A stretch of 51,212 bases of DNA from positions 1-51,212 of the forward strand of contig JAUYSQ010000082.1 in assembly GCA_030696285.1 (NCBI GenBank). Reading direction: 5' to 3'. Shown here one piece after another: positions 41,024-49,646 of this stretch. A program made the translations under genes and the position numbers. The stretch comes from Sulfuricurvum sp. GTDB lineage: Bacteria > Campylobacterota > Campylobacteria > Campylobacterales > Sulfurimonadaceae. Below the pieces are notes generated by a model. The model saw only the letters and a program-made list of their open reading frames with translations, was not told the origin of the DNA and did no database searches. Position 1 is the first letter of the stretch. Every line of letters starts with the position of its first letter.

Positions 41024-41326
41024 GTGAAATTACTGAATAAAATAATGAAATATTTTACGAAGCTTCAACCCAAAAATCTCTTAGAGTTGCAAGTATGCAC
41101 AGGGGAATCGTGTGGTTCGTCTCGTAATGATGAGGGTGCAAAAGTGGCCGCAATTGCTGCGGCACTTCATCATCATTCTTTAGAGCATGATGATGTAAGA
41201 GCAAGAGTAGCCGCAATTGCTGTTGCCCTTCACCATCATGAGCTTGAGAATTCAGGTCAAAATAATGGTTTAGCCGGACTTGCTTCGCTCGTTGCAGCAA
41301 TTCATCATCATAATAAAAAGAAGTAG
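41024..41326 (+). CDS. Soluble OadG-tail-like protein with three VAAIAxALHHH repeats
   Basis: A 100-residue protein. Residues 41-51, 62-72 and 88-96 repeat a hydrophobic segment ending in three histidines (VAAIAAALHHH, VAAIAVALHHH, SLVAAIHHH). The same motif is, from memory, the extreme C-terminus of OadG, the small subunit of the sodium-pumping oxaloacetate decarboxylase, where the histidines bind zinc and the tail binds OadA. OadG has one copy after a membrane helix; here there are three copies and no membrane segment. The first two copies are a 63-base tandem duplication. GTG 41024 follows AGAAGGGG. OadA is encoded five bases downstream, so it is most likely an OadA-binding protein. Confidence 0.72.
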   Translation: MKLLNKIMKYFTKLQPKNLLELQVCTGESCGSSRNDEGAKVAAIAAALHHHSLEHDDVRARVAAIAVALHHHELENSGQNNGLAGLASLVAAIHHHNKKK

Positions 41327-41331
41327 GGATT

Positions 41332-43158
41332 ATGGCAAAAAAATATATCGACATAATGGATACAACGTTCCGTGACGGATTTCAATCCGTATTCGGCGGA
41401 CGGGTACTAATGAATGATTTTTTCCCTGCAGTTGAAGCGGCAGCGCATGCGGGAATTACGCACTTTGAATTTGGAGGCGGAGCACGCTTCCAAAGTCTTT
41501 TTTTCTATTTGAATGAAAATGCGTTTGATATGATGGACAAGTTTCGTTCCATCGTAGGACCTGATGCCAATCTTCAAACACTTGCTCGCGGTGTTAATAC
41601 GGTTATGCTGGATACGGGTAGCCGTGAAATGGTTGATTTGCATGCCAAAATGTTTAAAAAGCACGGTACAACGACCATCCGAAACTTCGATGCGCTTAAT
41701 GATGTTGAAAATCTTAAATATTCCGGTGAGCGAATCGTTCATCATGGACTGAAGCACGAAGTGGTTGTGACCATGATGGATCTTCCTCCGGGGTGTGTCG
41801 GAGCGCATGACGTTGCGTTCTATGAAAAAACACTTCGTGAGATCTTGGATTCGGGTATTCCGTACAGTTCAATTTGTTTCAAAGATGCAAGCGGGACATC
41901 AAGCCCTCAAAAAGTGTATGAGACGATTCAAATGGCACGCAAACTTGTTCCTGAAGGAACCCATTTGCGTTTGCATACCCATGAAACAGCGGGTGTGAGT
42001 GTCGCATGTTATCTTGCGGCACTTGAGGCTGGGATAGATGGTATCGATATGGCAGCTTCTCCGGTCAGTGGTGGTACATCACAACCCGATATTTTGACGA
42101 TGCTGCATGCAGTCAAAGGTAAAAACTTTGATCTCGGTGGTTTAGAACTTGAAAAAATTCTCCAATACGAAGATGTGTTGGGTGATTGTTTAAAAGATTA
42201 TTTTATACCGCCGGAAGCGACGCAAGTCTCTCCTCTTATCCCATTTTCACCAATGCCGGGCGGTGCGCTAACCGCAAATACACAAATGATGCGCGATAAC
42301 AATATGTTAGACCGTTATCCTGAAGTGATTCGTGCAATGCGTGAAGTAGTAGAGAAAGGTGGATACGGTACGTCCGTTACTCCGGTATCGCAATTTTATT
42401 TTCAGCAAGCTCTTAACAATGCTCTTATGGGTCCATGGAAGAAAATTGCTCCCGGATATGGCAAGATGGTATTAGGCTATTTTGGTAAAACTCCAACGGC
42501 TCCTGATGCTGAAGTGGTGCGTATTGCTCACGAACAGCTCAAACTCGAGCCTACTACAGATAATGCAATCGATATTGCTGATCGTGACGAGAAAAAATCG
42601 ATCGCGTATTGGACGGATCTTCTTGAAAAAGAGGGACTTGAAACAAGCGATGAAAATATTTTTATCGCGGCTTCATGTGATGTCAAAGGGATTGCATTCC
42701 TCAAAGGGGAAGCAACCGTAAACGTTCGAAAAAACAGCCCGAAAACGGACGAAGTAACACAATCAATTCAATCAACACTACAGGAGAATTTCACAATGGC
42801 AAATGGTACTTACACAGTAATCGTAGACGGACAACAATACAATGTACAAATCGTAAATGGAAATGCAAATGTTCAATCAGTAACAGCGGCACCAGTGGCA
42901 GCACCCGTAGCCGTAGCAGCTCCAGTAGCAGCACCTGCGGCAAATGAAAATGCTATCCGTTCAGAACTTCCGGGGTCTGTTTTCAAACTCGTAGCGCAAG
43001 TGGGTGCTCCGATTAGTGCAGGCGATAAGATTATGGTTCTTGAAGCAATGAAAATGGAGATCGATGTCATTGCACCTCGTTCAGGTGTCCTTACCGCTGT
43101 AATGGTTCAAACGAATGATAAAGTTGAAGCAGGTCAAGTTCTTGCAATCGTAGAGTAA
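41332..43158 (+). CDS. Pyruvate/oxaloacetate carboxyltransferase with biotin-carrier domain (PycB/OadA)
   Basis: A 608-residue protein. The carboxyltransferase TIM barrel (about 1-300) has DTTFRDGFQS, the metal-binding LRLHTHETAGVS and GTSQPDIL. A conserved carboxylase domain follows (300-470), then the association region (NGTYTVIVDGQQYNVQIVNG, about 490-510), an Ala/Pro/Val linker and the biotinyl domain with the biotin lysine K574 in LEAMKMEI. It transfers carboxyl between biotin and pyruvate. Without OadB in the window it may be the B subunit of a two-part pyruvate carboxylase, as in C. jejuni, or OadA of a sodium pump; the adjacent OadG-like gene points toward Oad ancestry. A strong ribosome site lies inside the gene before residue 489. 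Confidence 0.92.
   Translation: MAKKYIDIMDTTFRDGFQSVFGGRVLMNDFFPAVEAAAHAGITHFEFGGGARFQSLFFYLNENAFDMMDKFRSIVGPDANLQTLARGVNTVMLDTGSREMVDLHAKMFKKHGTTTIRNFDALNDVENLKYSGERIVHHGLKHEVVVTMMDLPPGCVGAHDVAFYEKTLREILDSGIPYSSICFKDASGTSSPQKVYETIQMARKLVPEGTHLRLHTHETAGVSVACYLAALEAGIDGIDMAASPVSGGTSQPDILTMLHAVKGKNFDLGGLELEKILQYEDVLGDCLKDYFIPPEATQVSPLIPFSPMPGGALTANTQMMRDNNMLDRYPEVIRAMREVVEKGGYGTSVTPVSQFYFQQALNNALMGPWKKIAPGYGKMVLGYFGKTPTAPDAEVVRIAHEQLKLEPTTDNAIDIADRDEKKSIAYWTDLLEKEGLETSDENIFIAASCDVKGIAFLKGEATVNVRKNSPKTDEVTQSIQSTLQENFTMANGTYTVIVDGQQYNVQIVNGNANVQSVTAAPVAAPVAVAAPVAAPAANENAIRSELPGSVFKLVAQVGAPISAGDKIMVLEAMKMEIDVIAPRSGVLTAVMVQTNDKVEAGQVLAIVE
42782..42798 (+). promoter_or_regulatory. Internal ribosome binding site and ATG within the OadA gene
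   Basis: AGGAGA (42782-42787) lies eight bases before an in-frame ATG (42796) at codon 489. Start there would give a 120-residue protein made of association domain, linker and biotin carrier alone. The spacing is ideal and stronger than most start sites in the window. Confidence 0.5.
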
Positions 43159-49526: not shown

Positions 49527-49646
49527 AGCTTTTTCGTCATACCGAACTTGATTTGGTATCCAGTTATACTTTACTTTCTCCGTCATACCATGCTTGCTTT
49601 GTTATACGGTGCTATCTCCGTCATACCGTGCTTGACACGGTATCCA
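49499..49646. repeat. Palindromic repeat array, right side of the GIY-YIG gene
   Basis: Arms in order: TGGATTCCGTG...CACGGAATGAC (49499-49526), CGTCATACCGAAC...TTTGGTATCCA (to 49562), a decayed CGTCATACCATGC... copy (from 49591), and CGTCATACCGTGC...ACGGTATCCA ending 49646. Stems differ in sequence between arms, but pairing partners differ with them. Confidence 0.88.

Follow-up and report, generated by a model that had tools for sequence, protein, structure and literature searches.

The locus

The window, i.e., the whole 51,212-nucleotide stretch of Sulfuricurvum DNA analyzed here (contig JAUYSQ010000082.1), carries on its forward strand a short ORF at 41024–41326 (GTG start, TAG stop) that encodes a 100-residue protein, a soluble, triple-tail derivative of OadG. 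The ORF lies directly 5' of oadA, with a gap of 5 nt between its end and the oadA ATG at 41332. An N-terminal region (residues 1–37; 41024–41134), a remnant of the OadG juxtamembrane segment, is followed by three tails: tail 1 (residues 38–51, GAKVAAIAAALHHH; 41135–41176), tail 2 (residues 59–72, RARVAAIAVALHHH; 41198–41239) and tail 3, the most diverged (residues 84–96, AGLASLVAAIHHH; 41273–41311), with mean identities across the genus of 95, 91 and 76%, respectively. The motifs of the first two, KVAAIAAALHHH and RVAAIAVALHHH, are near identical, while the third, LASLVAAIHHH, has diverged. The repetition is also visible in the DNA, where a 50-nt unit starts at 41127, 41190 and 41262 (spacings of 63 and 72 nt), with copies 2 and 3 being 80 and 62% identical to copy 1; the first spacing is the 63-base duplication that an earlier note on this sequence had described. 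Two or more tail-like matches arose by chance in only 17 of 20,000 composition-shuffled versions of the protein.

The maximum 19-residue hydropathy is 0.40, as compared to 2.0–3.2 in membrane OadGs, and the absence of a membrane helix, also claimed in that note, is thus borne out. A low-confidence AlphaFold model (mean pLDDT 51.5) places helices at residues 37–55, 58–76 and 83–99, and the computed amphipathicity of the tails is weak. Elsewhere in the window, a 19-nt unit forms a short tandem array (49577–49632, 2.9 copies).

Descent from OadG

The 100-residue protein is matched in three stretches by TIGR01195 (oadG_fam) at E = 7.5e-5, with 23.2 bits against a curated cut-off of 36.05, and by PF04277 at E = 0.005, with 17.9 bits against a cut-off of 27. 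A profile-profile alignment (hhalign) of 17 soluble relatives with 14 Campylobacterota membrane OadGs has a probability of 97% and an E value of 8.4e-11, spanning both the tail and the stretch that follows the membrane helix in OadG (MSYVTQFMSK vs VMKYLTMFQSK). Searching the PDB with the protein sequence or its profile returned chance matches only. Since the juxtamembrane stretch and the tail both align with OadG, the protein looks like a helix-less OadG in which the tail has been kept and multiplied. The earlier note had proposed three OadG-like tails in 100 residues, to be given up if a profile search showed no relation to OadG tails or if homologues occurred without an oadA/pycB neighbor; neither was observed, as the search upholds the relationship to OadG tails and the homologues have oadA as their neighbor.

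Like OadG (PF04277, TIGR01195), the protein is encoded directly upstream of oadA and has the C-terminal tail [KR]VAAIxxA[LI]HHH, along with part of the juxtamembrane segment. Unlike OadG, it has three tails instead of one, lacks the membrane helix, scores below both curated cut-offs, and is encoded in an operon without oadB. The membrane helix and oadB were both tested for and are both missing; consequently, the protein should not be filed as a gamma subunit of oxaloacetate decarboxylase (OAD), even though the peptide-domain contact by which it works is probably the same. It is a real and conserved OadG variant, undescribed as far as the literature searched shows.

The partner enzyme

The adjoining oadA/pycB gene (41332–43158, forward strand) encodes a 608-residue protein with a carboxyltransferase, an association domain and a biotin carrier with the biotin motif EAMKMEI; the Pfam domains are PF00682, PF02436 (PYC_OADA) and PF00364 (biotinyl). 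Among PDB sequences, PycB of the two-subunit pyruvate carboxylase 5ks8 is the nearest to OadA, and it is also the best structural match of the OadA model (mean pLDDT 79). A second, PycA-like biotin carboxylase, unlinked to oadA, is present besides AccC in most of the genus; in the window’s own genome, its gene is cut by a contig end, and the product is a candidate PycA partner of OadA/PycB. The 41 Sulfuricurvum genomes yielded no PEP carboxylase. Taken together, the OadA domains, the match to 5ks8, the PycA-like carboxylase and the missing PEP carboxylase fit a pyruvate carboxylase: the partner enzyme is most likely a two-subunit, cytoplasmic enzyme that makes oxaloacetate, not a sodium pump, and would run in the carboxylase direction. 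We know of no two-subunit pyruvate carboxylase for which an OadG-like partner has been described. Campylobacter jejuni is described as having a PycA/PycB pyruvate carboxylase (Cj1037c/Cj0933c; PMC4178425).

The association domain of OadA is predicted to include a β hairpin at approximately residues 491–508 (TYTVIVDGQQYNVQI; 42802–42855), with strands at 492–498 and 501–507 in a low-confidence segment of the model. This hairpin is the expected docking site of the tails, a role assigned by analogy with the gamma-alpha contacts described for OAD (PMC7274780; PMC2881705). When OadA is modeled alone, residues 471–537, the region of the hairpin, have very low confidence, as would be expected of a domain that needs a partner, which is a weak hint from the model. 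The association domain is kept in tail-bearing and tail-less lineages and has diverged in Campylobacter.

Distribution in Sulfuricurvum and the status of oadB

The triple-tail ORF is present in 26 of 41 Sulfuricurvum genomes and is the immediate upstream neighbor of oadA at all loci seen; the constant neighborhood that the earlier note suggested checking thus holds throughout the Sulfuricurvum lineage. In nine genomes, the order is a gene for a membrane OadG with one tail, then oadA, then oadB, which adjoins oadA in all nine. Four of the 41 genomes have no oadA match; G003 and G023, both among these, have no tail-protein match either. G026, a genome of 88% completeness, has an oadB locus, and OadA was not found in it. 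Weak matches of the triple-tail protein in ~500-residue frames of relatives (E 0.01–0.3) were taken as chance.

One genome, G016, has oadA and neither OadG nor oadB. A malic enzyme-like gene (L158, 2906–4186) is found there 210 bases upstream of oadA, where the relatives have oadG, and the gap between the two genes encodes no tail. In the OadA tree, the 23 triple-tail rows tested and G016, whose exact placement is unsure, form one group (support 100/99) beside the membrane-OadG group. This topology fits one origin of the triple-tail form and one loss, in G016.

oadB (PF03977) is found in 13 of the 41 genomes. It does not adjoin oadA in any triple-tail locus and is absent altogether from 23 of the 26 triple-tail genomes, including the window’s own, which is rated 100% complete; the observation in the earlier note that no oadB follows oadA thus extends to the genome. 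The remaining three, G029, G035 and G012, have oadB at a separate locus, together with its own membrane OadG gene and without oadA (L154, 5003–6621; L155, 4986–6601; L156, 1755–3340), and the only OadA found in each genome is encoded next to the gene for the soluble triple-tail protein. The OadB proteins of these three genomes fall inside the genus clade. The separate membrane OadG-OadB pair and the single OadA suggest a shared alpha subunit. An nhaD-like antiporter gene lies near the OadG-OadB pair in L154 and L155 (in G029 and G035).

Similarity to OadA retrieved 80 Campylobacterota loci, about 65 of which have oadB right after oadA; with the proviso that in a few the ORF was missed by the script or cut by a contig end, a multi-tail OadG was seen among these in L029 only. 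The rest are ten triple-tail loci and L046, L055, L060, L070 and L077, from genomes in which no oadB was found.

Selection on the tails

Pairwise codon comparison of 25 distinct sequences gave pN/pS values of 0.055, 0.081 and 0.20 for tails 1–3, as compared to 0.57 for the N-terminus and 0.30–0.41 for the linkers; synonymous differences are near saturation, making the absolute values rough, yet the contrast between the tails and the rest is large. Purifying selection is strong on each of the three tails, while the N-terminus and the linkers drift. In G007, G032 and G060, the N-terminal region has been lost and the protein is little more than three tails. The low pN/pS of the tails and this reduction identify the tails as the functional part. 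The N-terminal segment was also considered as an essential amphipathic membrane anchor; this was rejected because it is deleted in these three genomes.

A proposed trivalent assembly subunit and its alternatives

In the OADs of Salmonella and Vibrio, as described in PMC7274780, the gamma tail mediates the contact of alpha to beta-gamma. The same paper, citing Balsera 2011, gives a 1:2 ratio for the binding of this tail to the alpha association domain, with alpha tetramers being promoted; together with that domain, the tail helix is proposed to make up a PT-like fold, and as many as six alpha subunits could be bound by beta3-gamma3. By analogy with OadG of V. cholerae and S. typhimurium (PMC7274780; PMC2881705), the tails of the Sulfuricurvum protein would bind the OadA association domain; its stoichiometry, a promotion of tetramers and any bound zinc we infer likewise.

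On balance, we favor the view that the triple-tail protein is a remodeled OadG, now a soluble and trivalent subunit in the assembly of a cytoplasmic OadA/PycB enzyme. It would display three docking helices on one soluble chain. As with the single gamma tail of Vibrio and Salmonella, each helix would complete the PT-like association domain of OadA and link a pair of OadA chains, and three tails on one chain could gather up to three OadA dimers, the soluble counterpart of the membrane beta3-gamma3. In a two-subunit pyruvate carboxylase, such a scaffold would both complete the OadA/PycB association domains and cross-link them. The arrangement resembles the tetramerization (PT) domain of pyruvate carboxylase, to which the OadA association domain with the gamma tail has been likened (Balsera 2011, as reported in PMC7274780), except that the completing helix would be supplied in trans, with three copies on each polypeptide. 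A broader scenario is put forward more tentatively, as it falls somewhat short of an even chance: a sodium-pump subunit would have turned into a soluble trivalent scaffold that gathers OadA/PycB dimers into a defined higher-order complex and that, in some species, also apportions one shared OadA to a membrane Na+ pump and a cytosolic pyruvate carboxylase.

The genomes with both partners inspire a different, rather unlikely explanation, in which the triple-tail protein is a partition factor: it and membrane OadG would compete for one pool of OadA, and it would keep OadA cytosolic as PycB and off the OadB pump, and the oadB-less genomes would have inherited it from such a state. G029, G035 and G012, which combine the triple-tail gene and oadA with a membrane OadG-OadB pair elsewhere and in which one OadA was found, have the required composition, and the position of their OadB inside the genus clade agrees with it; yet 23 of the 26 triple-tail genomes have no competing oadB, and their tails are strongly selected nonetheless.

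A little less probable still is a role in metal handling, with the three histidine clusters binding zinc or nickel to load OadA or to buffer the metal and scaffolding being secondary. Among the 25 sequences, HHH is invariant in tails 1 and 2 and HH in tail 3, and the OAD gamma subunit is reported to contain a zinc ion (PMC2881705). However, conservation of the hydrophobic VAAIxxAL core roughly equals that of the histidines, and Campylobacterota OadGs that are accompanied by oadB usually have HH only, some none. Moreover, HHH is already present in the single-tail sister OadG and predates the tripling, which metal binding therefore does not explain.

The protein could also be a functionless, decaying relic, in which the OadG helix was lost after the loss of oadB and the tail drifted by slippage. 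OadG remnants do follow oadB loss in Sulfurospirillum-like and Sulfurimonas genomes, yet in Sulfuricurvum the tail pN/pS is 0.055–0.20 across the whole clade and the gene is kept in 26 genomes, having been lost in only one genome with oadA (G016); already contradicted by the selection pattern, a relic is highly improbable. Finally, a chance low-complexity Ala/His protein unrelated to OadG, to which scores below the PF04277 and TIGR01195 cut-offs might point, deserves next to no credence, being contradicted by a gene position identical to that of OadG, a profile-profile E value of 8e-11, and an almost identical tail on the one-tail OadG encoded in that position in the sister clade.

If the triple-tail protein is a trivalent scaffold, it suggests a route from a membrane energy-converting decarboxylase to a soluble carboxylase, in which the anchor is deleted and the docking peptide is kept and multiplied. 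A peptide-domain interaction so far known from membrane complexes alone would then exist naturally in a soluble and multivalent form, making the alpha:gamma stoichiometry and alpha tetramerization testable without detergent. The genomes with one OadA and both soluble and membrane partners possibly present one alpha subunit serving two opposing reactions.

Tail variants and tail loss across the phylum

In a survey of 397 genomes of the phylum, OadA was found in 283 and OadB in 140, a few of these being fragments or weak matches. In a regex-based search of the 450 nt upstream of oadA, 28 of 36 readable loci from oadB-less genomes had no tail ORF, and the idea that oadB loss alone explains tail retention was rejected on this ground. 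After the loss of oadB, OadA does not as a rule need the tail: most oadB-less relatives, e.g., Campylobacter, as well as G016, have OadA without OadG. Once oadB has been lost, oadG usually decays, and the Sulfuricurvum clade differs; since most oadB-less OadA genes elsewhere in the phylum lack any OadG, tail retention and tripling are lineage-specific. S. cavolei is described as lacking the oadB that S. multivorans has (PMC6242987).

Two membrane OadGs with two tails were found, in unrelated lineages (L029; G100 = L191). Like the triple-tail protein, they combine a tandem repeat of the OadA-binding tail with a broken or absent oadB; unlike it, they keep the membrane helix. In L029 (3675–6826; also L201), the oadB that follows is frameshifted and truncated beside the start of a transposase-like ORF, although frameshifts in metagenome assemblies can be errors. 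The other (L191, 1486–1812; also L200, 5677–6003) belongs to the Arcobacteraceae-like genome G100, which is 99% complete and in which no oadB was found; a PEP carboxykinase-like ORF follows its oadA. All three tail multiplications coincide with an oadB that is lost, broken or displaced, a count biased by the fact that G100 was found by a search with the triple-tail profile.

In Sulfurimonas (L055, 3874–4008; L204), the OadG helix has been lost and a soluble one-tail ORF still precedes oadA, with no oadB; in L055, from a genome without oadB, the membrane helix is interrupted by stops. L218, L230, L232 and L238, from oadB-less genomes of a single family (probably Sulfurospirillum), hold OadG remnants in decay ahead of oadA and are snapshots of gene loss. 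In G382 (L241, L242), two closely similar OadA genes each have their own membrane OadG, along with a single oadB.
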